Below, in pieces: positions 1 through 64,000 of a stretch of DNA of 64,000 nucleotides. Made by a program: the position numbers and the translations under genes. Under the pieces are notes generated by a model that was given only the letters and a program-made list of their open reading frames with translations, did not search any database and was not told where the DNA came from. Position 1 is the stretch's first letter; the number at the start of each line of letters is the position of its first letter. The stretch comes from Trebouxia sp. TZW2008 (taxonomy: Eukaryota > Chlorophyta > Trebouxiophyceae > Trebouxiales > Trebouxiaceae), in the NCBI GenBank assembly GCA_002118135.1, contig BDIU01000035.1, positions 1 through 64,000 on the forward strand, written 5' to 3'.

Positions 1-68
1 AGGGTTCTGCAAATTGCATAATTAATTCAGGTCGACCCAAAATAATTCTGCCACGTTCCCTGTAATCG

Positions 69-114
69 GCAGGGCGAAAGCTTTCGGCCCCTTTCGCTGC
101 CGAAAGCTTTCGGC
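69..114. repeat. Pair of short palindromes upstream of gene 1
   Basis: A perfect 16-bp palindrome, GCCGAAAGCTTTCGGC, lies at 99-114. A second copy of its 12-bp core, CGAAAGCTTTCG, lies at 75-86. They sit about 350 bp before the proposed start codon of the first gene. Paired palindromes like this could bind a dimeric regulator, but nothing else supports that. I see no gene in 1-464. Confidence 0.4.
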
Positions 115-464
115 TATCTGCCCGCTCACTGCCGGACCTCATAGAATGTGCTACTTTTGACCAGACGCTTGACTGTGTGAGCAAACATTCGCCGATACGT
201 GAGGGCCCGGGCTGGAAAGTAGCCCGGTCCTGGAGAAACTCAATGTGCTAGTCGATTTCGGCAGGGTTTGAGACGCTCACGAGAAGGGTTGTTGCATCAG
301 CAGCACTGGGGCGATAGTATTGTTGACCGGTGGCCACGTAGCGTGCCTTCTTGCTGCACGAGTCGCCACAGGTCCTTTGAAGTCTCAGTAGACCAAGATC
401 TTCAGCCTGTTTGTGCTGTACCACTTATTGTTGGTCGTTGTCAGCCAATACAGCACTGTCGCCT

Positions 465-3216: not shown

Positions 3217-3284
<68 letters not shown>

Positions 3285-36094: not shown

Positions 36095-36170
36095 AGCCAG
36101 CTGTCAATGGTGTAATTGCTGAAGCTGATGCAGAATCTGCTGCTGCAGCTTAGGTGCTTGTTTCTCATCA
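36095..36170 (-). pseudogene. Decayed echo of the FAM136A last-exon end
   Basis: On the minus strand this copies the last ~75 bp of the FAM136A coding sequence (the GAGAAACAAGCACCTAAGCT part to the stop and the following AGCTGGCTGG). It lies directly downstream of the working 3' end. Several substitutions separate the two copies. Confidence 0.75.
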
Positions 36171-36183
36171 AGTCAGCTGGCTC

Positions 36184-44180: not shown

Positions 44181-47100
44181 TCATCGCTGGCGTGCTACCA
44201 ACTTTGGCTTGCCCGTCTGGCCATCAAGCTGCAACTTCATGCCCATTTGCTGCAACTCTGCGTTGTCAACTGTACTGCATGCCCTGAGGCTACTGATGGA
44301 CTGTTGAATGTCCTCATTGCCTTCACAGAGGTTCCGTACAGCCCACAAGCCATACTCTCTGACCAATGGATTGTCGTCGTCCCACTGCAACAGACAGCAA
44401 CAACTGCATCCAGCGTCCAAACCAACAAACAAGGCAGAATGATATGATTCTGTACTTAATTGTCATGGGCAGTGTTTGGCATACACCAATCTGATAAAGC
44501 AGAAGACCATATCAGAACACAAGGCCTGTATGGTTCTAGAACAACTTGGTGCAACAAGAGGAAAGGTCTGACAACCAAATGCTGCAAACCTGCTTGCACG
44601 CATTGACTAAGCTTCAGCACGTTTCAACAGGGGTAGCTTTCTGGGATGCTGCAAAAGGACAGAAAGAAGGCACGACATCACCTGGCATTGGGATAATATG
44701 AGCTCCACACAACCAAGCTGCTGTACCTTCTGCTGCACCGCTTTCTGTCTGAAGCATAGATTTGCAAGCAATGCCACCAGATCGCACCTAAAGCCCTTGT
44801 AGGGGGGTTGCTTGAGGTACTGCTGAGATAGGTATGCCAGCTGCTCAGGCGACTCAGCATGCATTCGATCCAGAAGCTGACCAACTGGCAACTCCATCAG
44901 ACTGCAGCGCTGTTGGTGACTAGTTATGCTCTGAATTGCATCAGAATTGTCATTGTGACCTGTCAATGCACCCCTTGGCTCTTCTGCCTGCTGATGTTCA
45001 CAGCCATTGGCATCTGAGTCTGATGCAAATGGCTGTGACAGGTCTTGGCTGCTGCCTTCAGCTGCCATATGTTGAGATTCTGTGCTGAGATGCTGATTGT
45101 GCAAATCAAGACTTTGCTGCTGTTGAAGATGCGTATCTGTGTCTGACACTGTCACTTGGTGGGTAGCAGGTGCTGCATGTTCCAAGCTTTGATTTGCACC
45201 TGAAGTGGATGTGTGACTTTCCTGAGCGGCTGAAGTAGGCCGCCGTGGGGGCTGAATAGGTTCCAAGGCTGTCAACATGGCAAGAGTCATGACCAGCATT
45301 GGCATGTTGGCATTGTTTGCGCCATGTACTTCAGCAGCTGCGTCCTGAGCTGTCAAAGCACGAAGCACCTGCAAGCAGAGCAAAAGCATTGTTTTGGGTT
45401 GCTGTGACGTTCCCGGGCTGCCTCGTTAGACAGAGGCTCCCATTATGACGCCTGACAGCATGGACTTTTCCTCTTCTCTTCTTCCTGTCAAGGCCAGCCA
45501 CAATGACACTTGACTACCTACCTCTTGTGTCTGACGGGGACAAGCATAACTTGCAAACATCTGAGGAGAAGTGGGAGCACTACTATTTCAAGCTTACTTC
45601 TTGCTCAGAAGAAGCCTGCCTGGCGAGATAGGACGTGGGCCACACACGCCTAGCACATGTGCTGGAAGGTGCGATGACTACGATTTATTCTACTTCTTGC
45701 ATGCCTGTCAGCTGAGTGAGAGCACGCCCATGCCTGATTTGACATGCTCATGATCTGCAGTGTTTTCAAACTGAGGGCACGCCCGTGCCTGATTTGACAT
45801 GCACAATGTTGATGCTGGCAATACATGCTTGAAATAAAGCTTGTGACAGGCATTCACCCTCACAACCCATTCGGTTTCACTCTAAATACATGCCAGACAG
45901 GCTCAGCAGGCTTAGCTAGGTGAATACTGGAGCAGTCAACTGTCTCCAACCAGTTTGGTCCTGTGTCACAACGCATGTCATGCACTTGTCTCAGCATGCT
46001 GTTGTATGGATCTGAGCAGGCTCACCTGTAAGCCAGCTTCCAGGCTATCTGATTTCACTTCAAATCTTGTATAGGGCGGCTGGACCAAGCTGGCGCACAT
46101 GGCATGCACCCAGCAGATCAAGAAGCGTGTGCCGACTGATGGGTCCACAATGTCTGTGCGCCTGAGACAGCAAAAGCTTCTTGTGTTTTCATTAGAAAGG
46201 AACTGAAGAAAAAGTTAGGCTAGTGGACGTTACAACAGAAGCTTTACTGAGTAGCAAGTATAAAATGAGCAAACAGGTTGATTGCATGCACAGAGCAAGT
46301 CTGGCATCACTAGCTGCACTGAAGATGATTTGAGGCCGCTGATGCACCACATGCTGGATGATCCACAAAGCAGCTATGCCAGTGCAAGCATGCGCTGGCA
46401 CAGTAGTACGCAAGGCAATGCCAGATGCAATGACGCAAAACCACGACTAGCACAGCTCAGTCCTCACAACTTCCTGGCTGGTCGTTGGCTTGCAACATTC
46501 AATGCACTGTGACAGTGCGTTACCTGTTTGCTGTGGGTTGCTGCAGCTCATCAGCCAGCAGTTGCAGCATGGTCACGTGCTCCTGGCACACAGCTGAATC
46601 CACCTTGCCCTCAAAGCAAGCTGCTGCATCTTTGCTGTACAACACTGATAGTGACGCCATAGCTGAACCCATCAAGTCTGACTGCCAAATGACATGGTGC
46701 ACAATGAGGCCCAATGTGCTTGCTGCTGGTGACGGCTGTTTAGTAATCCTGACGTAACACAGGAGTGCATGGAGGGCTGCAGCAGCAGGACCTTGGCAAA
46801 GCTGCTCCTTTCTGGATTTGCTACTCTTGGTGGCTTGCAGAATAAGGTTGCTGAGAGGTTCTGCTGTGAACTCTGCATGCAGATCAACAGTGAGCCAAAT
46901 ACCTGACATGACTGGTGGCATGCAGGGGTACCAGCAAGATTGTGCAGGGCACTGATGTGTTGGACACAGGCTTCAAAAGGCAGTGCTAGTAAGCTAGCTG
47001 CAATATGTCGGCTTGCAGAACGAGGTTGCTGTGGGGCTCTGCTGTGAACTCTGCATGCAGATCAGCAGTGAACCAAATGCCTGGCCTGAAAACTTGCATG

Positions 47101-47916
47101 CAAGGGTCATCAAAGCTGCAAAGGACACTCAATTTGAAGAGACAGGCTTTGTAGGGCAACTCCTAGTGAGCTGGCTGTAATGTCAGCTCCCTTTGGGTGC
47201 TCATCCCCACCTGTGACATGTTGGGCTAGGGCAACAAGAAGCTGAGGACAAATGTCATCCCAGATGTCTTGTAAGCAACCTGGATTGGAGGCAGCCATGT
47301 TCAGCAGCAACTGTAAAGCTGTCTTGTATAGGACCCCAAACTGCTCATCATCTGCAGTGTGTACAAATGGTTTTGAGCATGCCTGGGCTGCAAGTAGACT
47401 GGTGCGAGGTGAGCAAGGGACTGGGACTGACTTGCTCACAGTGGTCTGTCTCATGCACCTTAGCCAGAAGGGACAGCACACTCAGCACCACTCCCTGATC
47501 AAGGAAGGCCAAGCAGGCTGACTCTTCAGCTGTACACGTGTTTCTGAGAAGCCGCAGGGTCCATGTGGTCTTGTATGTGAGCAAGGTATCAGCACTGGTG
47601 CTGTATGCCGCTAATTGACGATCAAAGACAGCTGGAAGCGAAGTGGTAATGCCAAGCTGAATCAGCTGCTGCCTTCCTAATTGCGTCTTTGCCCGGTTCA
47701 GGGCATGTAAGCCCCACATTGTGAGGTCTGAATCGTCTGTCGTAAAGTCTGGCTCCAGCATTTGCATCCCCTGCAAGCAGGAACTGGACCCCGTCTGCCG
47801 TGCTGAAAATCAGAAAGCACCTTAACTGCAAGAGCGCAATGTGGAAAGCAGCATACCTTCGCTAACGCCATATCACCAGCTGAGGCATCAACCGCCACAG
47901 AATTTGTGTCGTGCAT
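44181..47916 (-). CDS. ATXN10: Ataxin-10 homologue
   Basis: Armadillo-like helical protein with the ataxin-10 C-terminal domain. Animal ataxin-10 works in cytokinesis, cilia and neuron survival; its role in algae is not established. Exons in transcript order: 47916-47857, 47770-47432, 47382-47211, 46872-46524, 46161-46026, 45368-44682 and 44384-44181, all in phase, 648 residues. Helical repeats lie across exons 2-5 (TMWGLHALNRAKTQLGRQQL, TWTLRLLRNTC, YKTALQLLLNMAASN). A Gln/Ser/His-rich low-complexity insert occupies most of exon 6. The diagnostic C-terminal domain has FRCDLVALLANLCF and then DDDNPLVREYGLWAVRNLCEGN. The acceptor of exon 4 was chosen because it keeps phase and is repeated in a decayed copy upstream. 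Divergent from importin-5. Confidence 0.9.
45415..45495 (+). repeat. Dispersed repeat family B, copy 3
   Basis: GGGCTGCCTCGTTAGACAGA, GGCTCCCATTATGACGCC, CAGCATGGACTTTTCC and a pyrimidine-rich tail. It is intronic in ataxin-10. Confidence 0.7.
45888..45966 (+). repeat. Dispersed repeat family A, copy 6
   Basis: TGCCAGACAGGCTCAGCAGG, CTTAGCTAGGTGAATACTGG and TCTCCAACCAGTTTGGTCC. It is intronic in ataxin-10. Confidence 0.7.
46950..47050 (-). pseudogene. Decayed echo of ataxin-10 exon 4
   Basis: On the minus strand, CTGCATGCAG followed by AGTTCACAGCAGA repeats the acceptor and first bases of the working exon at 46872, 178 bp away. The copy then reads AGCCCCACAGCAACCTCG in place of ACCTCTCAGCAACCTTAT. 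Weaker similarity extends across the end of exon 3. Confidence 0.8.
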
Positions 47917-48187
47917 GTTTGTCTCGTGCAAATCAGCGCAGCTTGACAAACAGCATGAGCCTGCTGATCAAATGCTTTCACGGGCTTTTCCTAGAACGCG
48001 CTCCGTGCAGCCCTGTGCGTGCCATCCAAGTGTACAATCTTTGCCTGCACCGCGCCACGGCTTATAGTTTGTCGGATAATCAATTGTCGATCATATAGTC
48101 GCAACACAGCTGAAGACGATCCCAATCACTGCAACATACCAAAATTGACGCTCAAACTGATTGTAAGGGTTGAGAGGGGCCTCCTAC
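47917..48187. promoter_or_regulatory. Divergent promoter region ataxin-10 / importin-5
   Basis: Opposed start codons are 271 bp apart, so the two genes must share this promoter space. No element is diagnostic. The call rests on gene arrangement. Confidence 0.6.
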
Positions 48188-51100
48188 ATGATGGAAGCAA
48201 GCTACCAAGCGCTCCTCGCAGGGGATGCGGCGGCCTTCGAGGCGCTGATCCAGCAGCTCATGTCTGCTGACAATGATGGCCGCAAACAGGCAGAATCGCT
48301 GCTCGAACAGCTCAAACAGCACTCCACTGATCTGGTTATCGGCAACTTGATGCGCGTAATGCGGACATCACAGAACCCAGCGTCTCGGGATATGGGAGCA
48401 GTCATGCTGCGCAAGGTGTTCCTGCAGTTTTGCTGTTGCTTTTCACATCCTCACATGGCTATCAAAGGTATCTAACATGTGCCTTATTCCTTCAGGCTGT
48501 AGTCAAGGACTCATTGTGGCCCAAATGCTCTGGCAATGTTCAGGTACTGATTGCCTCTACATAGATTGTTGAATTGATCAAATGGTGATACCTGAGAAGC
48601 TAAACAAGCACCAGCCTGCCAAGTCTTATCAATGAAAAGGGGTCCTTTGTGCCGCTCAGGGTGCTGTAAAGACAGAGCTACTCAACTGTCTGCGTCAGGA
48701 GCAGAAGCACAGCACGCTCAAGAAGGTACATATGCATCCACAAAGCTCCTCAAGCTGCTTCATATTGCATACTACAACTGTATGTGGCAAAGTCAACAAT
48801 GCATACCATACAACGAAGGGTGCTAAAACAAGACTTATTCCTTGTGATGTTTAGCCTTGTGAGATGCCAAATCCCAACACTCTCATGCTTTGAATGTCAA
48901 CACTTGCATGACTGTGTTGTGAGCTGGTGTTGCAGAACAGTTCTCACCACCCTGAATGACTGACCCCAAGGCTTGTGCCTTCTGCAGATTGGAGATACTG
49001 TATCTGGTCTAGCAGAGAGAATCTACGACCTTGGCTCAGACTGGTCAGAGCTGCTGCCATTCCTCTTTGAGTGCGTACAATCTAACCAACCAAGGCAAAT
49101 GGAGAGCGCACTGCGCATCTTTGCCGACTTGGCCGGTTTCATTATGTCAGTGTTGCTACCTCACGTCAATGTCATGCGTGAGCAGCTAGCTAGGTGCATG
49201 TCACACCCAGAGACAGATGTCAAGATTGCTGGCCTCTCAGCCACCACCTGCTTCATCAGAGAACTGGAAGAAGACAGCGACAGGAACAAGTTCCAGGACC
49301 TCATACCAATCATGCTGCAGACAGTGAGCAACATTTTGAGCACTGAAGAGCAAGACTCAGCTGAGGAGGCTCTAGAGGCTTTTATTGAGATTGCTGAGGC
49401 TCACCCAACCTTCCTGCGCCGTCAGCTTGATGTTGTGGTCAACAACATGCTGCAGGTAAGCATCTGCTGCAGGGAAAAGAAAAGGAAACATTTACTCCTT
49501 TTAAAAGCCCACTCTGTGAGGCACCCTCAAGGAGCATCTGTGAGTAGATGCTGCTCTGGATCTGTTTCATGCATGTGTGCGTCAGTTTGATGTCTTGGTC
49601 ATACACATGCTGCAGGCGAGCACCTGCTGCATGACAAGAGGAAAAGCAAAGAAAAGAGAAGCCTGCGTTGTCAGGCGTCCTGGCAAGCCGCTGTGAGTAG
49701 AAGCAGCCTGAGAGCTGCTGCATGCATGTGGGTATGAGTTTGATTTTATGGTCATCAACATGCTGCAGGCGTGCATCTGCGACATGCACATCAGCTGGGT
49801 TTGCGGGCTATATATGTGCAGGGTGATGCGGACTTGCTATGCCCGGCCCATAGAAGGCTGCCTTTGTCATGTCCAGAGGTGTTGCTGACAAGAGGATGCC
49901 AGCAGCGTGCACAAAGGCTTTGACACACATAAACAGCACATCATTGAGCACAGCACAAAGCATGCGCTATGCAACAAACTCATGTCAAGCCCAATGCCAG
50001 CATCCAGTTGCTGCATGCTGAGACCTCCTTTTGAATGCACCTAATTTCAAGCACCAATGCTGCTCACTTGCACCAAATCTGTATAACATAAACAGCATGA
50101 GACGCTCTTGCTCATCAAGACAGCGACAGAAGCTGTAGGTGCCATCGCACCTTCCTTTCCAAGGGCATCGGTAGGCAGCAAAAGTGGCAGCAATGCAATG
50201 CTTGCAATGATATGCATTTCAAACTGGCAGCAATGCAATGCTTGCAATGGTATGCATTCCATTGCTGCCAGTATTGCTGCCTACTGATGCCCTTGGGCAG
50301 GGAAGGTGCGATGGCACCTACATAGGATATGCTTGTGATCAACAGCAGCATCCTAGGCTGCTTCTACTCACACAGGCTCCTTCTATGATGCTTAATGGCC
50401 TAGTCGCAAAAAGTTTCATTTTCTTTGCTCTGTGTTTGTACAGACCCTCTGTAACCTGTTGCATGTAGGTAGCACAATCCTCCCAGTTTGCAGAGGGTAT
50501 CAGGCAGCTGGCTGCAGAGTTCCTGGTCTGTCTGTGCGAGGCCAGGGAGAAGGCACCTGGCATGATGCGCAAGCTGCCACAGTACATCAGCCAGCTCTTC
50601 AACTGCATGCTGCTGTTCCTGCTGGATGTCACAGTAAGCAGCTGCTGTAACCATTTTGAGCATTTCAGCTTGTCAACTTCGTGCTGTCTGCTTTATGTCC
50701 AGATACACTGCTGTCTTCATATGACGTCTGCATTTATTGTCAAGAAAATTGTCCTTATCTCATATAGTCTGTATTCCACAAGGCCACTGCAGTCTTGATG
50801 CATAGATGGACCTGCCTGCAATATACATGGACTGTCTTCATGTCAAGACTTCACGATGTTTGGGTTGTGAGACACTCAAAGCTTCTGAGGCCTTGACCAG
50901 ACTTCCAAAAGCTTCCTTGCACCTTGAGACCTCTCAGGTGTAAGCTTGACAGGATGCTTAGTACACACAGCAGTAAGCCACACTTTTCAATTCTTGAGGT
51001 CATTCACTGTTTTTCCTTGAGCAGCAACATGGTATGAGCAAAGGCACATGCAAAGTCTGCTGTAGCCAAATTGTGCTGCAGTGTAAAAAGGCCTCAGCAG

Positions 51101-54100
51101 CCATTGCCTGTGCCTTTCTCATACAGCATATTGGCCAATGATGCTGCTCTGAAGAAATGCTGCTCAACAAATCACCTACACTTGCAGCATGCAATTGCTG
51201 GTGATCAAGCGGTCAGACAAAAGTTGCACACTGCGCTTTTTGTATTCTTGCAAAATGCTGATTGTGACGCGTGGGAAGTTCTGCTCTGATGGCTTGTCAT
51301 AAAGTTAAATTTGTGAAAGTCCATCAGAGCAAAACTTCCATGTGTCATAAATTGCAAAACTGTGAGAATCTATCAGAGCAGAACTCCCATGCGTTCCCCC
51401 AGCATACCTTCATGTGCTATGACGCCACTAGCAAGCATCAGTGTAATGCTGAACAAATGATGCATTGGTTCAAGCACATTCAAGACAGCCTATCTGCATG
51501 ACAGGTCAAGCCAGACTAGCACTCACTGAGAGTAATGCGTGACTGCATCACAGGAGGACCCAGACTGGCCACAGCAGATTCAGACCAGGATGAGGTCCCA
51601 CATTCAATGATCCCACCAGCAGCATGTGGTTGAATAAAACAAAATTTGTGGCAGGTTCAGTCATGGACAGAAGAGCATGTTTGCATTACAGGATGAGCCA
51701 GATTGGCACTTAGTCGACTCAGAGCAGTATGACTCCCCAATCAGCAGACTCAGAGCAGTATAAGGCGTATCAACAAGAGCGTATGTGCTTTACAGACCAA
51801 GCCAGATTGATGTGAGCAGAGGAAGAGCACTATCAAGCATACTCAAATCACAGGATGGACGAGACTGGCACTGAGCCAACTAGGAGCAGTACAAGTGCCC
51901 GTGTTCAATGGCCCAAGCAGCAAGCACTTGCTTGACCTGGAATGAAAGATGAATTGTTTTGGTGTCAATTGTCGTCAGGAGAGCATGAATGTATTGCAGG
52001 ATGAGCCCGATTGGCACTCAGCAGTTTCAGAACAGTACGAGGCAGAAGGCGAGGGCGAGCTATACGAGTTTGGTCAAGAATGCCTGGACAGGGTTGCCCT
52101 AGCCCTAGGCGGCAAAACCATGGTGCCCTTGGCGGAACAGGCCCTGCCCCAGCTGATGACTGATAGCCGCTGGGAGCAGCGGCATGCAGCCCTAATCTGC
52201 TTAGCCCAAATTGCTGAAGGCTGTGCCAAAGTGATGCTGCAGAATAAGCAGGTCACAGGGTTGGTGCAGATGTGTCGACAGGCAAGTTGATCTCACTCCC
52301 CAGAGCACATGCTGCAAGTGTGAGCGAAAGTGATGCCAAATTGATGCTGCAGAATAGGCAGGTCACAGGGCTGGTGCAGATGTGCAGGCAGGCAAGCTGC
52401 TTTCACTCTCTCAAGTAGACAGGGCTGCAAAACACTTTTGCTCTCAACATGGGCACATGCAGTGAATTGTGTGCGAAGCTGATGGCCCTCTCTTGTGCTG
52501 CCTGTGCTGCGAACGTGCGCCCTGTCATGCGGAACCTGGGCATGCTGCGCCACAGACCCCATGGGTGGTGTTTCAAGCTGATGCCACTCCTTTGCGCAGA
52601 CTATACTTAAAGTGTGTGACTTGTTTTAGGAAGTCTGGGTGTTCTGCATCATTGCCTCCTTCTAGCATACTCCAGCCGCTGTTATGCATTGAGCAGACTG
52701 ATCTGAAAGCATATGTCTTGCTCTGGGAAGCCTGGGCACATGCTGCGCTGTGGCTGGTATGTTTGAAATGAACAATGGTTGTGGACTACAAGGAAGAGGT
52801 TATGTCTGGACCGCCTATATGATTCAGAATATAGCGCCTACAAGTTCTGTATGGTGGACCGCCTTTTGTGAACCAGGTGTTCACCCCTAATGCATGCCTT
52901 CCTATGATGTATTGACAAACTGTCATGCTGACTCATAGGGCCTGCAAGACGCTCATGCCAAGGTCCGCTGGGCAGGGCGCCAAGCTGTAGAGCAGCTGTG
53001 CACCCCTGACACATGCCTTTCTGAATTGTTTTGAAACAGTATCATGCTGACCTGTAGGGCTTGCAAGATCCTCATGGAAAGGTGCGCTGGGCAGCCTGCC
53101 AAGCGGTCGGGCAGATGTGCACAGACCTAGGCCCAGACATCCAGAATGACGAGCATGCCACCATTGTGCCTGCCCTAATCAACGTCATGAAGGATTTCAG
53201 CGAGCCCAGAGTGCAGGCCCATGCTGCTGCTGCCATTGTCAACTTCAGCGAGAACTGCGATGAGGAAATATTGACTGGCTACCTGGATGACCTAATTACG
53301 CAGCTGCTGGGGCTGCTGCAGAATGGGCAGAAGCTTGTCAAGGTATGCGTTGATGATCAGGGAGTGCTGGGTATGCAACGCTTGTGAGGGAAGCAATCTG
53401 CAGGTGTACCTCATTTCAGGCTGGATGCTGATGCGTGCTGCGCATTTCTGTGTGCCTCACATGCAAGTGACAGTGCAGTGTTATTGTGCCCATTAACACT
53501 GCACTGTCACTTGCATGTGAGGCAGGAGCAGGCATGAGCCACGAATAACAAAGTCCATGTCTGTCAGGGGAAAACTCTGCTCTGCATGATGGCAGTGTCC
53601 AAAATCAGCTGTCAAAATTGTACAAGCAAACCACGCACTGGATGGGCCTGCTCAACAATTGTAGTGTAGTAAAAGAGCAGCTGATAGCCTATGCCTTTGT
53701 CTGTTCTGCAGGAAGGAGCTTTGACAGCCCTAGCGTCTGTAGCAGACGCAGCAAATGGGCATTTTATCTGGGCTATGACACAGTGATGCCCATGCTGAAG
53801 CGCATCCTGTAAGGTGCTAGCAGCAAGGCTGAGCAGCTGTTGAGGGCCAAGGCTTTGGAGTGCATGCCCATCAGGGACACTTCATCTGATAGTACGCCAC
53901 ATTGATGCCGGTCACTCTTTTGCTGAATGCAGGAAGGAGCCTTGATCGCCCTAGCCTCTGCAGCAAGTGCCCACTTTGTCTGCTATTGCAATACAGTGCC
54001 CATCATGCTTCTTGTTTTTGCTAAATCTGCTGTCATCTGTACTGCAGGAAGGAGCTTTGACAGCTTTAGCCTCTGTAGCAGACGCAGCCAATGCCCATTT

Positions 54101-57100
54101 CATTCGGTACTATGACACGGTGATGCCCATGCTGAAGCGCATTCTGTACAGCGCTAGCAGCAAGGCTGAGCAGCTGTTGAGGGCCAAGGCTTTGGAATGC
54201 GTCTCACTGGTGGGCATGGCTGTTGGCAAGGATCGCTTCAGGGCTGATGCACAGGAGGTTATGGCCTTCATGCAACAGCTACAGGTCAGCACACAATCCG
54301 CCATCTAGTAACACTTAGACTGATAGTAATGTTGATATGACACTGACAAACCACATGGCAACAGTGGCAATAACAACAAGTCCCTGGTGGGCATGGCTGT
54401 GGGCAAGGAATGCGTCAGGGCTGATGCACAGGAAGTTATGGCCTTCATGCAGCAGCTTAAGGTCAGTACACAATCTGCCATAGTGACAATAAGACCAACA
54501 GCAATTCAGATACGATACTGACCAATTACAGAGCAATAGTGGCAATGTCAATCAGTCCCTAGTGGGCAGGGCAGTGGGGGAAGAGCGCTTTAGGCCTGAT
54601 GCACAGGAGGTCATGGCTTTCATGCGGCAGCTGCAGGTCAGCCCACCAGCCGTGATACCAAAGTTGACACCCATCAAACACATAACAGTAACAATAACAG
54701 CAGCAAGGCTGCGCAGCTGTTGAGTGCCGTTGCTTTGGAATGTGCCTGACTGCTGGGCATGACAGCGGGTAGAGAGCGCTTCAGGGCTGATGCTCAGCAG
54801 GTCATGGCTGTCAAAGGCCTTACAGCTGAGCCCTGGGGCACTTGCTCTGAGCTCCTGCCTTCATGAATTTGACCTAGAGGGTTGTCTTAAAGTTGAGCTG
54901 AGAGCCACAACGGCATTTTTGCCTTTGAACTTGTGCCCTCATGCATTTGCAACAACCGTGACCTTGCAACTGGGCTTAGAGACAGCGTCGCCTTTGAGCC
55001 CTGCTCTCTTGTATACTTTGCAGCGGTTGCGCTGGCATTGGGCAGCAGCACAAAGGAGGCGCTGGCTTTGAGGCTTGGGTCTTATGTATGGCACAAGGTG
55101 GCCCTGCAATTGAGCCCAGGCACAAAGGCGGCATTGACTTTGAGCTCTTGCCCTGATGTATGCCACGCAGCAACTGCCCCGTCATTGGTCCAAAAGCACA
55201 CAGACAGCATTGCCTTTGAGCTTCTCTTGATTGGGCACACAGAATACCTTGTGGGCTGAAAGGCATACAGCCATGTCTGGCTGTAAGTGCCAGATCATTG
55301 TCTGGCGCAAGGTTGCCCTGCTGTTGAGCTCAGGCGTAAAGGTGGCATCGACTTTGAATTCTTGTCCTCACGAATTCAACACATCAATTGCCCTGTCGCC
55401 GCACCAAGAGGCACAAAGGCATTGTTGCCTTTGGGCTGCTACCCTATGTCTTTGACGGGAAGGCAAGCATGCAACTGGGCTCAGAGGCACAAAATAAGGA
55501 TCGCCTTTGAGCTTCTGCCTTCGTTTGTACAGCACAGAGGCTGCATTACATGTGGGCCCAGAGGCATAGAGGCAGCCAGAAGCTGCTTGCTCACAACAGT
55601 GCTTTGCCACCGGAACTGCCACCTGAGACTGTATGACACATCTGCCGAGCCTTTTCAGCAGCCATAAGCTTGCACCAGCTCTCGTCCAACAATATGGCTG
55701 CGCAAGAGGCTCAGTAGGTACGATATACATCAGAGGCATGTCACATGGCACGGCTCCCCTGGGTCTTGGCAACAGAAAACAGTAGCTGATATGTGCCCTT
55801 ATTGCTGTTGCTCTGACGCTCAGACCCACATGGCGCGGCAGGCAGATACATGCTGCAAGCTAGGGCATGTGCTGAGTGGGTATTCTCACACTTCACATCA
55901 TTTGTTCCCCAAGAAGTGCTTGTGAAGTGTCTGCGCTGCCGTTTGGATTGGCACACACTCATGTCTTTGTTGCAGAGCTCACAAATGGACCCTAATGACC
56001 TGACAGGCAGCTACATGCTACGAGCTGCAGCATGTTTCTGCAAATGTCTACGGGCAGAATCCTTTGCTCTGCCTGCCAATGGTCATGAATCACAGCAAAC
56101 AAGGCACAATGAAAGTCGTCAACGCTGTTGCTGCAGAGCTCGCACCTCAACCCAACACCCAACAGGCAGCTACATGCTGCAAGATTCTGCAAATGCCTGG
56201 GGGCAGAATTCTTGCCCTACCTGCTCATGATTTATCAAGGGCGCAAATAATGTGCACAAGGAACCCAGAGCTCACATCTAGACCCTGATGGTGCCCTGAT
56301 GGCAACAGGCAGCTACATGCTGCAAGCTACGGCGCATTTCTGCAAGTGCCTTGTGTCAGAGTTTCCACCTTACCGCACAGTCAATACAGCAAGCAAACGA
56401 CGCACATGGCCTGACTTTATAGAACTAAGCTTTGCATTATGTTGCTGTTGCAGAGCTCACATCTAGACCCTGATGACCCAACAGGCAGCTACATGCTGCA
56501 AGCTGGAGCACGCTTCTGCAAATGCCTCGGGGCAGAGTTCCTGCCCTATCTACCCATGGTCATGCCCCAGCTGCTTCAGTCAGCCAGTCTTTCACCAGAT
56601 GTGACTGTCAGGGAACAGGACGACACTGGTGAAGACATTGAAGAAGATGACGAAGATGATGATGAGGTGAGGTGTTGTCCTGCTGTAGCATTATGTGCTA
56701 TTTTGTTCAATGCAGTCAGCCTGACCAAGCATCCTATTTTGCACTATGAGAAATCACTGCGCTGAAAACCCATGTTTGCCACGCTTTCCTATGCAACTGC
56801 GCTTACCCAGCCCCCTGTTGTGCATTAAGAGAGAAACGCCATAAGTCCAAATTTGCAAATTTGATCCTTCCCAATGCAGCTGGGCTGATCAGAACTCTTG
56901 CTGTGCAGACTGAGACCCTGTACTATGGTGACCGTAAGATCAGCATCAGGACCAGCGTCCTGGAGGAGAAGGCAACTGCCTGCAACATGCTTTGTTGCTA
57001 CGCTGACGAGCTTGAAGTTGGCTTCTTCCCCTATGTCGAGCAGGTGACCTGCAGCCCTGCACATCTGCCGCAGATTGATGTCGCAAACTAGCAGCAGCAG

Positions 57101-60100
57101 CTGCTCTCCTGCAACCTGTGTTTGTTCCTCTGCCTTTCATCAACCAAGGCTGCTGCAGCTTCACCCGTCCTGGTCGACATGAGGCAGCCTGCATGACGAA
57201 GTTTGTACCTTCATCATGATGTTGCTGCATCAAGATGTTGCTTCAGGTTTGACTGCTTATGCTTCAGCATCACCCAGAATTTTCTGAGCACAGCAATCAC
57301 TGACATGCAACCTCTGGCAAGTCAGACCCTTTGTTTTCAATGTGCTGTTCATTAGCAGTTCCCGCTGGCTCATCAGCATTGAGGCGCACAATCATGACTG
57401 TACGCTGATGCACATGCTGATGTATCCATTAATGATCATGAGCACCCATGCCCGCAGGTCACGCAAATCATGGTGCCGCTGCTGAAGTTTTACTTCCATG
57501 AGGAGGTGCGACAGGCCGCCGTTCAAGCCATGCCAGAGCTGCTCAAAAGTGTGTATATGGCTGTGTCGGAGGGCAAAGCTGGCGGAGCTGACATGCAGTA
57601 TGTCAGAGACATGCTGACGTACCTGTGGCAACCCCTTATTGACTCCATGGTCAAGGTCAGTCTTGATCCTCTGTTTCCCCGTGACTTGCGTCCAGTTCAT
57701 TGTGACGTTGTCCTCAATCATTGTTTAGAATTCCATCATGTCTAGAGTTTCCATGTCCACATTTGCATTTTGCATGTCAAGTTTGAACTTCACACTTCCA
57801 TTTTGCACGTTTCCATGTTTCACATCATGTTTATACTTCTAGTTTCCATATCATGTGCATTAGCTCAAGAGCTGGTTGTATGATGACTTCATCCACTGCT
57901 GTTGAGGGTGACCATTGTCATCTTCCACTGCTGTTCATGACCTTGCAATGCGCCTGTGTTGTACATCTAAACTTTGCAGCACGTGTGGCATTGCTTAGAA
58001 CGACTCCTTGAGTGCGCTTGATTGCCGACAACGACTTACCCACAACAGTGCCTCCTTCTCAAACCCCTTCTGGATAGAAGGTCCTGTAGCACCATCTGAG
58101 TGTGACGCATCAACTGATCTGTCTATCACATACATAATGCATGTGGCTGCTCAAGGCTCAGCATGTACACCTGAAACCCAATGTTGACTTGCCACAAACA
58201 GGAGCCTGATTTGGAAATCCTGGCAACTCTGCTAGAAGCAGTGCAAGACATTGTGCAGCTGGTGGGCCCAGAGTGGATGACCCGGGAGCAGCTAGGCTTC
58301 AGGGCTTTGAGCACTTCAGGGCACTTTTGCAGCATTCAGCACACAAAGTAACATCTCCAGCTAAATACTAACATGTGCCCTTCAAACGCAGGAGCCTGAT
58401 TTGGAAGTGCTGGCCAACATGTTGGAAGCAGTCCAGGACATTGTACGTCTTGTCGGCCCAAATTTGATGACCATGGAGCAGCTAGGGCAGGGCTTTGAGC
58501 GCTTCAGGGCAGTGTTGCAAGACAGCGCCAAACGACGCAAGGACAGATCCAACATCGAGACTGGAGAAGACTTTGATGAAGACGAAGCAGAGGCCCTTGA
58601 GGTGTGCCTTGCATGTTGCCTTCAGAGGCAAATTGACTTACATAACAGCAGTGTCATTGCGTATCATGGACATAGCAGCACAAGGACAGGCCCAATATCA
58701 CCACTGGAGGAGGCTTCAATGCAGATGAAGCATGAGCCCTTGAGGTAAGTCATGGATGCCCATTAGACAGTGTTTGGCATATGTGTTAACATTGCATTGT
58801 CATTGCTTGACGTTGAGCAATTCAGGGCGCTGTTGCAAGACAGTGCCAAGAAGCGCACAACCAGGCCCAACACCACCATTGGAGAAGGCTATCATGAAGA
58901 TGCACATGAAGCAGAGGCTCTGGAATTGTGCCTTGCATGCTGTGATCAACACCGCTTCAATGCATTTCGCATCTTTATAAGTCTGAGGCCCTTGCAGCTG
59001 GGGTCGCATCCTGCAATACTAATCATTGAAATGTTGTTTGACTGCAATGACATAATTCTGCCCACAATCTGTGCTGCTGACACAGCAGCTATGTTCTCCG
59101 TATCAGTCTGTGAGCAGGCCCTGGCATTTGGTCAATAAGCTGCATGGGAAAGTCCAGAATTTCTGATGTAATGGGCATGCAAAATTGCTGAGTCTGTTAT
59201 TGCTGCTCTGAAAATTGTTTTGATAGTGGGGTATGGTACTGAACCATAATTGTGATGTTCACTGAGCTGTTCAGGACAACACCCAGCTTCAAGAGCAATT
59301 ACTGGATCCAGTGCGAGTTGTTTCTGCCTTTGAAGGGCTGCACTCATCAGCAGATTTTGTGCTGCATATTGCTGTGACATGCTGGTCTGCTCCAGGGTGA
59401 CAATGAGCTGGAAGAAGAATTGTTGGATCAAGTGCAGAGCTGTCTAGGCGCTGTCTTGGAGCAATTTGGGGACCAAGCCATGCCCCTCATGGAGGGCCTT
59501 ATGCCACAGATAGGGGCCCTGCTCACCCCTAAGAGCAGTGTAGAAGAGAAGAGAGTGGGCATCTGTATCATGGACGACATCATGGAGCATACGCAAGAAG
59601 GTCAGTGTTTTGCCACTTGTTAGCACTGATCTGCCTTGCTTATTGTCAGCAAGTGCAGTGTACAGACTCTTGTGCGGCATTACCACAAGTCATCCAGGGT
59701 GTCATGTGTGTGTGATGCTGGTGAGACTCTGTTCCCAAGTGGTGAACCCAGCTCTTCTAGCATTGTCATTGATGAACTCTGTGGCTGTGCAGATGCCAAC
59801 AAGTTTGCTGCACAGATCCTGCCATTGCTGTTGGATGGCTGCAGAAGCATTGAAGCCAGCATCAGGCAGTCCGGCTTGTAAGGCCTAGGCACTGTTCAAG
59901 AGATCTTCTGATCAGCAACACATGTGGCTGTGCAGATGCCAACAAGTACACTTCATAGAGCCTGCCCTTGCTGTTAGATGTCTCTGTACGGCCTGGGCAC
60001 TAGCATGACTTTGCTACATGTGTGTAAGGCACCTCATGCAGCTCTTGATAAGCGCAGTGGTTATGCACGTGCCAACAAATACGCTGCACAGATCCTGCCC

Positions 60101-63100
60101 TTGCTGTTAGACGGTTGCAGGAGCAGTGAGACCAGCATCAGGCAGTCCGCCCTGTATGGCCTGGGCACTATGGGACACCACCGCCCACAGCTCTTCCAGC
60201 AGACACACCAGTGCTAGCTCTTTCATGCAGGTCTGGACGTGCAATTGTGGCTGCCAACAGGGTGCCAACAAGTGCGCTGCACAGATCCTGCCCTTGCTGT
60301 TGGACGGTTGCAGGAGCAGTGAAGCCAGCATCAGGCAGTCTGCTCCATACAGCCTAAGCACTCTGGCTGTGCTCCTCTGAGAAGAAAAACCTGTGGCTGT
60401 GCACTGCTGATAAGCAACACATGTGGCTGTGCAGGTGCCAACAAGTATGCTGCACAGATCCTGCCATTGCTGTTGGATCGGTGCAGAAGCAGTGAAGCCA
60501 GCATCAGGCAGTCCGCCCTGTATGGCCTGGGCACTATGGCACACCACCGCCCACAGCTCTTCCAGCAGACAGCACCAGTGCTAGCTCTTTCATGCAGGTC
60601 TTGACGAGCAACTGTGGCTGTGCAGGTGCCAACAAGTACGCTGCACAGATCCTGCCATTGCTGTTGGATGGGTGCAGAAGCAGTGAAGCCAGCATCAGGC
60701 AGTCTGCCTTGTATGGCCTAGGCACTGTTGCACAGCACCGGCCACAGCTCTTCCAGCAGATAGCACAGGAAGCACTGACCCGCATCATGGCTGTCATTAC
60801 TGCGCCCAACTCTAGGTACTGCATCTACTCGCTCACTCACGCTCATCAAGATTTTTAAGGCTGTGGCATTTGCACTTGGCTAATGCTGTGGCATCATTGC
60901 CAGGCATCATGACTGACATCACAGCATCAAACTCTAGGTGATATGGTTTTGCCCTTTGTGCAATGCTGTAACCATGTAATTGCTGCAGATCTTTCTTGTA
61001 GCAGTCGGTGCTCTGAACATCTCATTTCCAGTCAACAGCTGAGGCCCTGGGCCCAGCCTGAAGCAGAACTGTGTGTCTTGTCCATAATAGGCAAACAAGC
61101 TGCTATTCCGCACAAATCCAAGTGCTCCGTCTGTGCTCATTGCAAGTTGGGCAACATGCATGTTGCAGAACCAGCTGTGACAGCAGCCCTGTGCATGCTT
61201 CACATTCAAAAGGCAAGCTGCCATCGCATTGCAAGGCAGAACCAGTGGCCGTTTTCTTCCTTTGAGAAAGTCAATGGTTGCTGCAGGGATGACACAAATG
61301 GTCATGCCACAGAGAACGCCATTGCTGCGCTGGGGAAGGCTCTGCAGCAAACGCACAACATCCAAACATTGCCAGACAGCATGGGTGTGGCAGACCTTTG
61401 GGTGCAGTCCCTCCCACTTACTGTGGACTCAGAAGAAGCAAAGATTGCGCATAAACAGCTTGTTGGCTTCATACACAGCTCTGACCAAGGGTGAGCGCTA
61501 ATACCTCATTTGTCTGATCATGTGGACAGTCACCGGTCGATTCTCTTCCCCCTCACTGTGGACTCAGAAGAAGCAAAAATTGCATATAAACAGCCGATCG
61601 GCTTTGTACAGAGCTCAGACCAACAGTGAGCGGCTTGACTTACTTGGTTATTGGATAGTGCAAGCAAGCCCTCGCTCTCTCACTGTCCTACACAGACTCA
61701 CTCACTCACTCAGACTCACTCATTGACCCACCTACTCCTCCACTCACTCATTCACTCACTCACTCACTCAGACTCATTCATTGACCCACCCACTCACTCC
61801 CCCCCCCACTCACTCACTCACCCACTCACTCACTCACTCACTCACTCATATACATCTAGTCATGCACTCATGCATTTATGTGTTTACTGAGGCAAGAATG
61901 TATGCACCCAATTGAAAATATATGACATGGCATTTGCTGGCTACAAAAACAACATACTGCCTCCTCTCAGAATTGGCTCAAGGCGTATGTTCACATGCTT
62001 GTCAGATTCTTGGGCACTCTGCAGGCAGACGACATATTTCAACCTTATCTTGACGTCTGTCCAGAACTTCTTCTTAGAGCACTCACTGTCTTCTGTGAAA
62101 AAGTTCTGCGCAGGCGTCAAGATCGCTGCTTGTTTCAGCGTGACATCAGAACACAATAACTGACTGCAATGTGCCCATCAACACATGCGCATTGGCACGC
62201 AAACTGCCATCTTGGACAGGCTGTGAGCTGGCTATCAGTACTTCTGCCTGATGCTGCAGCCTCGTACAGTTCATTTTGCAAGTATTATACACGTTGGCTA
62301 GGCAGGCTCAGCAGGCCCAACTAGGTACGAACAGAAGCAATCAAGTGTCTCTTAACCAGTTCGATCATGTGCTAACCTAATCCAATTATATTGGACATGA
62401 AGGGCAAATCATAGAATGTACATTCTTCTGTGCTCAGTAAACCTCTGCTGCATTCTGGCTGTGATTGCACAGTACGACAGCCAATCTTGAGTTGCCACAT
62501 GGTCTGATCATCCTCTGTGACCCACATCAGTGCTCACAATGGACAATATCAAGGGCTCGCAGCAACACCTGAGCTCTTGAGACACAGGCAGTGTGACAAA
62601 ATGAGCAGGCTTAGGTGCTTGTTTGTATGCTGCAGAATAATTGGGGCCGGCAACAAAAATCTGAACAAGATAGTGGAGATATTTGTCAAGGTGTTAGGCC
62701 ATGGCACAGAGCTTGCAGAGGCCGAGACAGCTGACCAGATGGTTGTGCTGCTGACACAGATGCAAGGCTCCCTGCCTCCCCAGGTACTCACTGCTCATCT
62801 CAATTGTTGACCGACCAACTTGTCATGGCCACAGCATCTGTTGCAAGCTGAAACATGATCGCAACGCCTGCTGGGACTATTCTGTAAATGTTGTTGACCC
62901 AAATGCAAAGCTCCCTGCCTCCTCAGGTACTGCCTACTGATAGTTCATGTTTTGCAAAACCAAGCATCATTGCAATGCCTGCTAATGTCACGTCAACACT
63001 GCTACAGCATCACTTGCAACACCAGATGGTTGTGCTGCTCACACAGATGCAAGGCTCCCTACCCCCTCAATTATTTTGGCAACTTGTTCCAAAACAGTCT

Positions 63101-63644
63101 TTGGTGCCTTTTCTTTTTGTCAACTAGATGTTGTAAGTAGTAGAGCCTCAATCATGTCATTGTCACTTCTGAAGCACTGATGCAAAGAGCATCAACAATG
63201 GCTGGCCATGCTCTGATCCAGAGTCTGTGCTTTGCCTTTGACAAAATCAATTGCCTTGTCTTCAAGAGCAATAAAGAGACGCCACGGTCTATATCCGAGG
63301 CAAACATGCCTAACGGCAGAGAATTTTTCTTTTCTTTTCTGTTGAATTGCCTCTGAGCATCGCACCCTTTCATCAGCTGCACAGATCACTGCGTGACACG
63401 TTGGGAGAAATTTGTGCCTGATTGCAGGCCGCTGCTGTCAAGCAGTCTGTCTTGCATCACAGCCGGACTGTAGAGATGTCAGCTCCAAAACCGACAAGAT
63501 CAGTCACTATTGCCAATCATCTAAAGTCACTCCTGTACATGAACACATGTCTGCCTGTTGCAGGTATTTCAAGGCTTCTTCAGCAAGTTATCAGCAAAAG
63601 AGCGCAAGGAACTGCAGAACAGAATGTCTCGAAATGGCACATGA
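48188..63644 (+). CDS. IPO5: Importin-5 (karyopherin beta-3)
   Basis: HEAT-repeat nuclear import receptor that binds cargo and Ran-GTP. Exons: 48188-48415, 48496-48543, 48660-48725, 48988-49455, 50487-50633, 52000-52281, 53058-53342, 54048-54284, 56454-56666, 56909-57043, 57458-57655, 58392-58601, 59396-59600, 60626-60815, 61287-61490, 62636-62783 and 63564-63644. All 17 join in phase to 1114 residues, the usual family length (about 1100). Landmarks: [71 protein letters not shown], the acidic loop [63 protein letters not shown] and the C-terminal helix region. Exon 6 ends in a GC donor (CAG|GCAAGT). Coding is 3.3 kb of a 15.5-kb gene; the introns are filled with decayed copies of exon edges. 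Confidence 0.96.
49575..49775 (+). pseudogene. Two decayed echoes of the importin-5 exon 4 donor edge
   Basis: Downstream of the working exon end (49455) two copies repeat the last coding bases and donor: CACATGCTGCAG|gcgagc ending near 49616 and CAACATGCTGCAG|gcgtgc ending near 49770. Each keeps the following CATCTGCTGC-type intron bases. In both, the donor GT has become GC, without the extended consensus needed for GC splicing. Confidence 0.8.
50136..50320. repeat. Large foldback (hairpin) in importin-5 intron 4
   Basis: Arms at 50136-50195 and 50260-50320 are reverse complements at roughly 90% identity, both carrying TAGGTGCCATCGCACCTTCC in their own orientation. The 64-nt loop contains a repeated GGCAGCAATGCAATGCTTGC. 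A transcript would form a stem of about 60 bp. This resembles a foldback MITE or a small-RNA precursor. Confidence 0.85.
50354..50430 (+). repeat. Dispersed repeat family B, copy 4
   Basis: AGGCTGCTTCTACTCACACAGGCTCC, then TATGATGCTTAATGGCCTAG and a T-rich end. It lies in importin-5 intron 4, just after the foldback. Confidence 0.65.
51265..51395. repeat. Mixed inverted and direct repeat
   Basis: GAAGTTCTGCTCTGATGG near 51280 returns in reverse complement as CCATCAGAGCAAAACTTCC near 51320 and again as TATCAGAGCAGAACTCCC near 51371. It is in importin-5 intron 5. Confidence 0.65.
51554..51900 (+). pseudogene. Four decayed echoes of importin-5 exon 6 start
   Basis: Copies begin at 51554, 51692, 51796 and 51854, each after a CAG. 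Each resembles GATGAGCCCGATTGGCACTC and the following CAGAACAGTACGAGG of the working exon at 52000. All break within about 50 bp; the copy at 51692 has an in-frame stop. Confidence 0.85.
52320..52400 (+). pseudogene. Decayed echo of importin-5 exon 6 end
   Basis: The end of exon 6 (AAGTGATGCTGCAGAATAAG to the CGACAG|GCAAGT donor) is repeated downstream with changes, including AGGCAG|GCAAGC. The copy keeps the unusual GC donor. Confidence 0.85.
52939..53025 (+). pseudogene. Decayed echo of importin-5 exon 7 start
   Basis: After an ATAG acceptor the copy reads GCCTGCAAGACGCTCATGCC and CCGCTGGGCAGGGCGCCAAG, parallel to the true exon at 53058 (spacing 119 bp). It is frameshifted at its first codon and carries a stop (CTGTAGAGCAG). 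Confidence 0.85.
53453..53524. repeat. Perfect 31-bp hairpin in importin-5 intron 7
   Basis: Arms 53453-53483 and 53494-53524 are exact reverse complements around a 10-nt loop. The arm contains CATGCAAGTGACAGTGCAGT. A perfect 31-bp stem without decay suggests it arose recently. Confidence 0.92.
53712..54010 (+). pseudogene. Two decayed echoes of importin-5 exon 8 start
   Basis: Copies start at 53712 and 53933, each after TGCAG and GAAGGAGC, and are parallel to the true exon at 54048. The first aligns for about 170 bp but has a frameshift in the ANAHF region and a TAA where the true exon has CTGTACAGC. The second has lost an internal segment. Confidence 0.9.
54375..54830 (+). pseudogene. Three decayed echoes of importin-5 exon 8 end
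   Basis: The segment beginning TCCCTGGTGGGCATGGCTGT and ending AGCAGCTTAAG|gtcagt or GGCAGCTGCAG|gtcagc is repeated at about 54381-54461 and 54556-54636, and again with more decay near 54700-54830. The first two keep good donors. The last has an in-frame stop (TGTGCCTGA). Confidence 0.9.
54830..55600. repeat. Degenerate minisatellite in importin-5 intron 8
   Basis: About eight to ten units of 70-75 bp share CAACTGGGCTCAGAGGCACA-like and GCCTTTGAGCTCTTGCCCT-like blocks. They follow directly on the decayed exon-8 echoes, so the array may have grown from the same process. Confidence 0.75.
55976..56380 (+). pseudogene. Three decayed echoes of importin-5 exon 9
   Basis: Copies begin at 55976, 56137 and 56269. 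Each has AGCTCAC-like sequence, ACAGGCAGCTACATGCT and TTCTGCAAATG, as in the working exon at 56454. The first keeps the TTGTTGCAG acceptor and is open for about 30 codons. The others carry deletions or shifted frames. Confidence 0.9.
57735..57860. repeat. Low-complexity TTTCCAT repeats
   Basis: Variants of GTTTCCATGT and CATTTTGCA recur through importin-5 intron 11. Confidence 0.5.
58202..58350 (+). pseudogene. Decayed echo of importin-5 exon 12 start
   Basis: Starts GAGCCTGATTTGGAAATCCT after AACAG, 190 bp before the true exon (58392). It encodes [17 protein letters not shown], then a deletion shifts frame and a stop follows. Confidence 0.9.
58640..58945 (+). pseudogene. Two decayed echoes of importin-5 exon 12 end
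   Basis: The distal part of exon 12 recurs at about 58670-58746 (ending in CTTGAG|gtaagt) and 58817-58935 (GCGCTGTTGCAAGACAGTGCC onward). The second reads [12 protein letters not shown] against [12 protein letters not shown] in the true exon. Confidence 0.85.
59270..59345 (+). pseudogene. Decayed echo of importin-5 exon 13 start
   Basis: TTCAG followed by GACAACACCCAGCTTCAAGA and TTACTGGATCCAGTGCGAG parallels the true exon start at 59396 (GACAATGAGCTGGAAGAAGA). The similarity fades after about 45 bp. Confidence 0.7.
59793..60600 (+). pseudogene. Five tandem echoes of importin-5 exon 14
   Basis: Copies begin at about 59793, 59936, 60069, 60262 and 60435, before the working exon at 60626. Most encode a version of [20 protein letters not shown]. 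Copies at 60069 and 60435 stay open through YGLGTM and [10 protein letters not shown]. Defects: a stop in copy 1, a large deletion and stop in copy 2, no clean acceptor in copies 3 and 4, and a changed tail without donor in copies 3 and 5. Confidence 0.92.
61524..61628 (+). pseudogene. Decayed echo of importin-5 exon 15 end
   Basis: CTCACTGTGGACTCAGAAGA to AGCTCAGACCAACAG|tgagcg repeats the end of exon 15 (donor at 61491). The copy has lost the donor GT by one base. Confidence 0.85.
61675..61860. repeat. CACT/ACTC microsatellite
   Basis: Long runs of CACT with inserts of CAGACTCATTCATTGACCCACC. It is in importin-5 intron 15. Confidence 0.9.
62290..62389 (+). repeat. Dispersed repeat family A, copy 7 (longest)
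   Basis: GTTGGCTAGGCAGGCTCAGC, CCCAACTAGGTACGAACAG, TGTCTCTTAACCAGTTCGAT and GTGCTAACCTAATCC. It is in importin-5 intron 15. This copy has the clearest A-box-like (TGGCTAGGCAGG) and B-box-like (GTTCGATCA) stretches, about 70 bp apart. Confidence 0.7.
62885..63075 (+). pseudogene. Two decayed echoes of importin-5 exon 16 end
   Basis: TTGTTGACCCAAATGCAAAG..CCTCCTCAG|gtactg near 62890-62926 and CAGATGGTTGTGCTGCTCAC..CCCCCTCAA near 63024-63070 repeat the end of exon 16 (donor at 62784). The first keeps its donor; the second has lost it. Confidence 0.88.
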
Positions 63645-64000
63645 AGGCTGCTGCAGAGTAGATTTGATCAGCTGCTATGATGTTTCTGAGATGTCACTGC
63701 CTTATCTTGTCAAGTAGTCAACATCTCCGGTCAGTCTGTCTGTCTTTCGTGTTCAGGTTGAGATTGCGTTGAGTTTGTGTGTCTTTTGCCCACAAGCTGT
63801 AGCTACTACTGCCAAGCATTATGCTGGAAGGAGCGGCTTCTCTGCATCAGGTAGCAATGAAGCATCAGAGCAGGTCTTGACTGGCTGCAGTTGTGGTCAG
63901 AAACAGCCTGTGCCTGAGGTCACAACCTAGCTGCTTCAATTGAGCAACTGCATGCATGCAGAACACAAAGGCATGCTCGTTTGCGATGCAGACGCTGAGA
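63645..64000. other. Downstream of importin-5
   Basis: Probably the 3' untranslated region and the start of the next intergenic region. No gene recognised before the window ends. Confidence 0.5.

Follow-up and report, generated by a model that had tools for sequence, protein, structure and literature searches.

Partial copies of exon edges in the introns of Trebouxia sp. TZW2008, probable remnants of short tandem duplications across splice sites

Introduction

The first 64 kb (the window hereafter) of the 252,753-bp contig BDIU01000035.1 (C35) from the alga Trebouxia sp. TZW2008 (GCA_002118135.1; 68.5 Mb in 527 contigs, 50 % GC) contains genes whose introns hold partial, tandem copies of the edges of the adjoining exons. 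We designate these copies echoes, and the copy that is continuous with the rest of the exon the working copy. The locus raises the question of how such copies originate, and of why copies of exon starts lie upstream of the exon and copies of exon ends downstream. The echoes are genuine, and local copies of this kind are widespread, but unevenly so, in the sampled genome. We consider them to be, with fair probability, spare copies left by short tandem duplications across one splice site, and a dense record of a known type of event that lengthens introns. A true mutational bias towards exon edges is possible, but not established.

Results

Direct copies lie beside the exon edges they resemble

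Comparison of the window with itself produced 53 direct high-scoring segment pairs (HSPs), 48 of them within 3 kb, and a single inverted HSP within 3 kb. A main sample of 244 kb from eight contigs was composed of the window plus 180 kb (40 kb of C35 next to the window, and 140 kb from seven other contigs). Here, of the matches that scored 40 bits or more and were no more than 1.5 kb apart, 218 were direct versus 3 inverted, with only the simple-repeat filter of BLAST applied, and 23 direct matches were more than 5 kb apart, though the search space at such distances is much larger. After filtering of simple sequence, the main sample contained 96 duplicate families, with a median offset of 148 bp. 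Matches were local within each sampled contig, which is relevant to the idea of introners or other mobile intron elements, expected as dispersed, near-identical copies in unrelated genes, the echo search being confined to these contigs.

Exons were predicted with a gene finder written for the purpose and trained on the window and the additional 180 kb, which learnt the splice signals CAG/GTgaGc for donors and TGCAG/G for acceptors (the slash marks the splice site). With a threshold passed by 0.5 % of random pairs, an edge copy was present in the adjacent 600 nt for 110 of 582 predicted exon edges (18.9 %), about three being expected; at the same threshold, copies were found for 77/582 intronic segments and for 33/567 stretches of intron on the wrong side of the exon. 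Acceptors (56/292) and donors (54/290) were alike in this respect.

Because the gene finder calls some echoes exons, as seen against protein-guided exons, spliced alignment to related proteins was used to fix the exons of three genes: IPO5 (importin-5/importin beta-3 like), from the window, and KAP3 (contig C223) and COG5 (contig C5), both on the minus strand. These checked genes are not a random choice, since IPO5 came with the original finding and KAP3 and COG5 were selected for holding many duplicate families. Before counting, we removed micro-exons and one exon lying inside an echo; in IPO5, 52000-52251 and 52362-52391, the latter within an echo, were merged to 52000-52281, and a 6-nt exon (54631-54636) was dropped. 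The three models pass through the working copies without stops, with an aligner that penalises stops and after removal of the micro-exons it had added. For IPO5, the alignment to an 83 % identical protein contained no stop and no frame break, the product matched Pfam TPR_IPO5 (E 9.5e-34), and it was 80–83 % identical to its three best matches, one from Trebouxia sp. A1-2 (82 %) and two on contigs of transcript size (83 % and 80 %). Relatives of this importin were also sought in viral contigs, and none was confirmed.

In IPO5, which has 16 introns, 14 of the 32 internal exon edges had a copy, seven on the donor side and seven on the acceptor side, with the threshold set so that 2 % of null comparisons pass (Table 1). 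Among the 39 introns of the checked genes, 20 held copies of some kind: 11 of the upstream exon end, 15 of the downstream exon start, and six of both. Wherever both kinds occurred, the upstream-exon copies preceded the downstream-exon copies (6/6). In 10 of 11 introns the donor had an upstream-exon copy at most 146 nt away, and in 15 of 15 the acceptor had a downstream-exon copy at most 291 nt away, with arrays of the latter that can extend far back into the intron; the sole exception to this rule of position is KAP3 intron 7, with a weak match to the inner part of an exon. The self-comparison of the window and the checked exons of IPO5 therefore bear out the tandem partial copies described in the original prediction, and its rule that acceptor copies lie upstream and donor copies downstream holds in the 39 checked introns with that one weak exception. 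The prediction had counted at least seven genes with echoes; there are five at most in the window, namely IPO5, with protein-checked exons, the M50-peptidase and kinase genes, named from Pfam, and the ataxin-10-like and nuclease-like genes, which are predicted only.

The duplicated unit, over 51 echoes of the checked genes, had a median length of 153 bp (10–90 % range 110–208 bp), with medians of 60 nt for the exon part and 87 nt for the spacer. The intron flanks of echo and working copy were alike in 33 of these 51 echoes (z > 3), in agreement with a unit that spans the splice site, as had been claimed, whereas in 14 of 51 no intron homology was visible (z < 1.5).

Local duplications were unevenly spread: over 304 kb, the number of pairs per 10 kb had a mean of 3.83 and a variance of 8.42, and 4 of 30 bins were empty. 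Positions 1–30000 of the window have 1, 0 and 2 pairs per 10 kb, and the 104–124 kb region of C35 has none. From this distribution, some genes seem prone to duplication.

Table 1. Echoes and tandem pairs in the window, with their position relative to the exon edge and their similarity to the working copy; z refers to the similarity of the intron flanks.
Gene	Feature	Coordinates	Strand	Similarity and remarks
IPO5	Gene	48191..63641	+	17 exons after cleaning; carries most echoes
IPO5	Two donor-type echoes, downstream of exon end 49455	49580-49615, 49737-49768	+	91%, 88%
IPO5	Acceptor-type echoes, upstream of exon start 52000	51554-51595, 51692-51732, 51738-51766	+	79-80% for the first two; third weaker
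IPO5	Donor-type echo of exon end 52281	52334..52391	+	90% over 58 nt, 110 bp away
IPO5	Acceptor-type echo of exon start 53058	52939..53003	+	80% over 65 exon nt; unit also includes 65 intron nt; z 6.2
IPO5	Two echoes of exon start 54048	53712-53859, 53933-53965	+	90% over about 149 nt, 82% over 33 nt; flanks not clearly similar, z 0.4 and 1.4
IPO5	Three echoes of exon end 54284	54381-54457, 54556-54636, 54699-54813	+	80-91%; period about 177 bp
IPO5	Four echoes of exon start 56454	within 55822..56372	+	79-87%; flank unlike working copy in three tested, z 0.6, 0.0, -0.2
IPO5	Echo of exon start 58392	58202..58347	+	83% over 141 nt; z 1.3
IPO5	Two echoes of exon end 58601	58681-58744, 58813-58924	+	79-81%
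IPO5	Weak echo of exon start 59396	59285..59333	+	78%; score 36, close to threshold
IPO5	Array of five echoes of exon start 60626	59794..60575	+	86-93%; spacing about 130-195 bp
IPO5	Weak echo of exon end 60815	60890..60937	+	73%; 60904-60939 gives 81% over 36 nt
IPO5	Echo of exon end 61490	61521..61632	+	83%
IPO5	Two echoes of exon end 62783	62889-62926, 63021-63069	+	84%, 92%
M50 peptidase	Two upstream echoes of acceptor-side exon start (predicted 29896)	29472..29994	+	
	130-bp tandem pair extending to predicted exon start 33623	33400..33644	+	Exon not confirmed by Pfam
Inositol 1,3,4-trisphosphate 5/6-kinase	Echo of exon start (predicted acceptor 39300)	39372..39439	-	87%, 68 nt
Probable ataxin-10-like	178-bp tandem pair adjoining the gene	46832..47181	-	75%; exon overlap inferred from open frame only

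Echoes decay as neutral spare copies

Where one member of a pair is a working exon (61 pairs), 12.9, 10.3 and 22.3 % of first, second and third codon positions, respectively, were mismatched, and 51 of 58 gaps were not multiples of three. These values fit a neutral spare copy compared with an exon whose silent sites also drift. Exon duplication with alternative use (mutually exclusive exons), in which the second copy is complete and keeps the frame, does not match these data: the copies are partial and most of their gaps break the frame. In the 26 pairs where both could be measured, the exon part was 84 % and the intron part 78 % identical, which is about the prediction of neutral decay with one protected copy. 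The graded decay noted originally is confirmed, and near-identical pairs are scarce, only 1 of 61 being above 92 % identity.

There was no strong sign that the splice sites of echoes are selected away or kept. AG was retained in 29 of 38 acceptor echoes and GT in 15 of 27 donor echoes, with a neutral expectation of about 0.73; silencing of these sites was considered and rejected, since AG is kept at the neutral rate and GT slightly less. The tract to the left of 12 spaced acceptor echoes scored like that of working acceptors (0.63 vs. 0.52; random, -0.59), the scored tract overlapping the matching block in some of the 12.

Introns of the checked genes were longer when they held echoes, with medians of 806 versus 373 nt (20 and 19 introns; P = 6e-5). 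Counting each unit as exon part plus spacer, the 51 echo units make up 8,285 of the 26,378 intron nt (31 %) of these three genes.

The excess of copies at exon edges depends on the null

Duplicate pairs were compared with a shift null, in which the exon annotation is shifted relative to the pairs, and with a forward simulation in which duplications arise uniformly, exons are under selection, and sequence decays neutrally and suffers deletions, at assumed rates. The 108 independent pairs of the main sample comprised 75 edge, 23 non-coding and 10 exonic pairs, for which the shift null gives 59.8 ± 4.8, 42.4 ± 4.9 and 5.9 ± 2.2, respectively. Of the 26 independent pairs in the checked genes, 24 had one copy with 10 exon nt or more, versus 14.7 ± 2.2 by the shift null.

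Edge pairs stay visible longer because the protected exon copy diverges more slowly; in simulations, 579 of 1135 edge pairs and 688 of 1829 intron-only pairs were detected, a factor of 1.36. After correction for this factor, the edge excess had P = 0.014 in the main sample, P = 0.027 with fresh data included and P = 0.0015 in the checked genes, so slower divergence of the exon copy accounts for part of the excess. The fresh data are 60 kb taken later (20 kb further along C35 and 40 kb on two new contigs) and analysed with fixed annotation parameters, which yielded eight pairs, four edge and four non-coding, where the shift null gives 4.0 and 3.7. Within the window alone, 13 of 18 duplicate families touch predicted exons (shift null 12.0 ± 2.2, P 0.43). 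The shift null is itself too lenient towards edges, because it permits placements that selection would remove. The strength of the remaining excess depends on the null, being strong against the forward model and weak against the decay-corrected shift null, and no excess is seen within the window alone or in the fresh 60 kb.

Several observations weigh against duplication followed by decay as the whole explanation. The edge share in the forward model was 0.42 for the sample (24.7/59.4) and 0.33–0.42 for the checked genes, well below the 24/26 seen in the latter and the 75/98 edge pairs among those edge or non-coding in the main sample. The excess over the shift null was found at all levels of identity (22 vs. 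15.6 at 85 % or more, 22 vs. 17.1 at 78–85 %, and 31 vs. 27.2 below 78 %); it is no larger in the more diverged pairs, where pure ascertainment might be expected to raise it, although these identity classes are not age-matched. In addition, the matching block of spaced pairs often ends no more than about 12 nt from the splice site, which simple decay rarely yields: 15 spaced blocks of at least 80 % identity ended between -2 and +12 nt of it among the 108 pairs observed, and 0.7 in the model, a figure per simulated sample of about 59 pairs. Anchored alignment also found intron homology absent in 19 of 56 echoes whose exon-block identity was at least 0.80, with about six expected. Plain duplication and decay therefore does not explain everything, and geometry plus decay as the full account was rejected, since both edge pairs and blocks that stop at the splice site were much scarcer in the simulations.

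A separate class of echoes copying exactly the exon was also contemplated. It is weakened by the gradual drop of intron identity, over about 20 nt, in echoes without intron homology, which form a continuum with the intron-homologous pairs, and by the intron homology of 33 of the 51 checked echoes. Blocks ending at the splice site would mainly be tandem units whose intron part faded faster in a minority, the size of which is unexplained.

Among the 61 edge pairs of the main sample, TG is the first exon dinucleotide in 11 of the 26 donor-type blocks. No corresponding CA at the end of acceptor-type blocks was seen, and alignment-end effects may contribute.

Other genes and repeats of the window

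The M50-peptidase gene matches Pfam Peptidase_M50 (E 1.3e-13) and the kinase gene Ins134_P3_kin (E 5.4e-28); the exon edges of both come from the gene finder, which miscalled one echo of the former as an exon. In the ataxin-10-like gene, Atx10homo_assoc was identified in 44610-45425, and 46523-46915 has no Pfam match. Three arrays (36086-36248, 36883-37203 and 54901-55489) do not overlap any predicted exon. The first two, with two copies of an 80-bp unit and 4.7 copies of a unit of about 69 bp, respectively, are situated in or beside the kinase gene and do not fit the pattern of exon echoes.

A ubiquitin-hydrolase-like gene on the minus strand contains 3.3 copies of a 42-bp unit (22031-22168) in a long open frame, probably an in-frame repeat kept in coding sequence. 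Two microsatellites were found, CTGT at 3219-3331 (28 copies) and ACTC at 61696-61848 (about 37 copies). A dispersed repeat, its core about 66 bp long, occurs at 38763-38820 and 62284-62341, with weaker matches at 16871-16928, 45879-45936, 34161 and 36459. It looks like a short non-coding mobile element: it has 10 sites in 304 kb, on both strands and none in predicted exons, and genome-wide there were 40 scored matches, including the query, of 94–100 % identity among 793 candidates.

Discussion

The position of the echoes can be understood from selection on the exon. Tandem duplications inside an exon, or adding a whole exon, would be removed by selection; those straddling one splice site would survive, with the exon whole on one side and the spare copy intronic and spliced away. 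In a duplicate of intron end plus exon start, only the downstream copy would continue the exon, and in one of exon end plus intron start, only the upstream copy. Copies would then fall upstream for acceptors and downstream for donors, since a single one of the two tandem copies remains continuous with the exon and is the one retained by selection. Neither this direction nor the observation that the working copy keeps the exon whole needs a special mechanism. With one copy protected, exon-edge pairs would be recognisable for longer than intron-only pairs, and repeated rounds of duplication would generate arrays and longer introns. In duplication-rich genes there is a residual edge excess beyond this account, which may reflect locally raised duplication at exons or slower loss of edge copies.

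The first of these options is that duplications start more often in or beside exons, for instance through breaks linked to transcription, splicing or exon-positioned nucleosomes, and that those crossing an edge survive. We regard this bias, advanced in the original prediction as genome-wide, as a tentative possibility. It would account for the excess in the main sample and in the checked genes, whether compared with the forward model or the shift null, and for the presence of this excess also among the most similar pairs; equal copy rates for acceptors and donors are likewise expected if exons rather than a motif matter. However, the fresh 60 kb contained as many non-coding as edge pairs, the window by itself was close to the shift null, and decay correction left modest P values in the main sample, with or without the fresh data. 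Part of the excess is ascertainment, it is largest in genes that were not randomly chosen, and the origin of the copies cannot be watched directly because near-identical pairs are almost absent. The second option concerns retention instead of origin: gene conversion from exon to echo, or a filter by which intron-only duplications freely collapse through recombination whereas collapse across an exon block does harm, could keep edge pairs similar for longer, and this would explain both the edge excess and the blocks ending at the splice site. We judge it improbable, because the ratio in full-tandem pairs is simply the neutral one, the near-identical copies that frequent conversion ought to produce are rare, and no clear mosaic was found, with a clumping z of 1.02 ± 0.33 in 33 spaced edge pairs versus 0.55 ± 0.37 in 16 non-coding pairs.

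The remaining explanations have little to recommend them. Copying of exon pieces from an RNA template, or a nuclease or element recognising TGCAG or splice motifs, is very unlikely. Blocks of spaced pairs do often end at the splice consensus, and CAGGT was near 3 of 61 exon-side ends versus 1 % of random positions, which are too few cases to build on, but copies are nearly always direct, 33 of 51 units clearly include intron, and the flanks of echoes are unlike the adjoining exon, as opposed to what an mRNA template would leave (mean z 0.27 in 20 pairs, one at 3.8). The targeting of TGCAG or splice junctions proposed originally finds no support, because donors (CAG/GT) are copied as often as acceptors, although TGCAG is the acceptor consensus; TGCAG itself was near 2 of 61 exon-side ends versus 9 % of random exon positions. 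Intron gain in the manner of Rogers and Hellsten, by which the intron itself is built of duplicated pieces of coding segments, would also place splice sites within the duplicated unit. Nevertheless, it is extremely improbable for the introns that hold echoes, because all six checked introns with copies of both exons have them in the reverse order and the remaining copies adjoin their own exon, bar one weak match. One KAP3 intron was evaluated as a case of such an intron birth and rejected, the apparent counter-example being a piece of the same exon. Lastly, tandem repeats are hard to assemble and the assembly is in 527 contigs, so collapsed or chimeric repeats were considered; there is scarcely any chance of this, as the best copies differ by 4–35 %, with neutral-looking changes, in families present on all eight contigs of the main sample.

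Gao and Lynch are said to have concluded in 2009 that internal gene duplications are common in eukaryotes. The closest published case among those located is that of the potato RdRp gene, where a tandem duplication across an intron–exon boundary created an intron; an 83-bp duplication within an intron is also mentioned (Ma, Lan and Niu, 2016, PMC4974935). As with the Trebouxia echoes, that duplication is direct and in tandem, comprises the end of an intron and the start of an exon, and has the splice site inside the unit. In potato, however, the duplicate made a new intron and added a piece of exon (PMC4974935), whereas in Trebouxia the spare copy is apparently wholly intronic and many edges are involved, in several genes, at donors and acceptors. 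The model of Rogers and Hellsten (Hellsten, 2011), as outlined in PMC4974935, shares with our account short tandem duplications within genes without any change to the protein, but the arrangement of copies in Trebouxia introns is the reverse of what it predicts. As for the molecular origin of the units, fill-in of staggered breaks is a plausible candidate. In one such report, fill-in by CST-Pol alpha makes small direct head-to-tail duplications, in mouse and human cells, from breaks made by Cas9 with overhangs of about 50 bp, compared with about 150 bp for the Trebouxia units (PMC8355091).

The original prediction knew of no standard description of such copies. This has to be qualified, since a boundary-crossing duplication is published for potato (PMC4974935), although none was found at such scale: a search of the open-licence literature, judged mostly by titles and abstract openings, returned no report of exon-edge echoes in these numbers. 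What seems new here is the density of boundary duplications and their role in lengthening existing introns.

The origin of intron sequence is rarely visible, and in the three checked, duplication-rich genes a sizeable part of it (31 %) can be traced to the neighbouring exon. Each echo carries its own clock relative to a constrained exon, and this genome could serve to quantify tandem duplication, decay and selection on splicing at the same time. A practical warning also follows, namely that gene finders call echoes as exons. The broader proposal, that introns in this algal lineage grow largely through tandem duplications of about 150 bp arising preferentially at exon edges, donors and acceptors alike, is at present doubtful. 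If there is an edge bias at birth, it would indicate a mutational process tied to gene structure, and if that process is centred on edges, exon borders would keep seeding new intron sequence.

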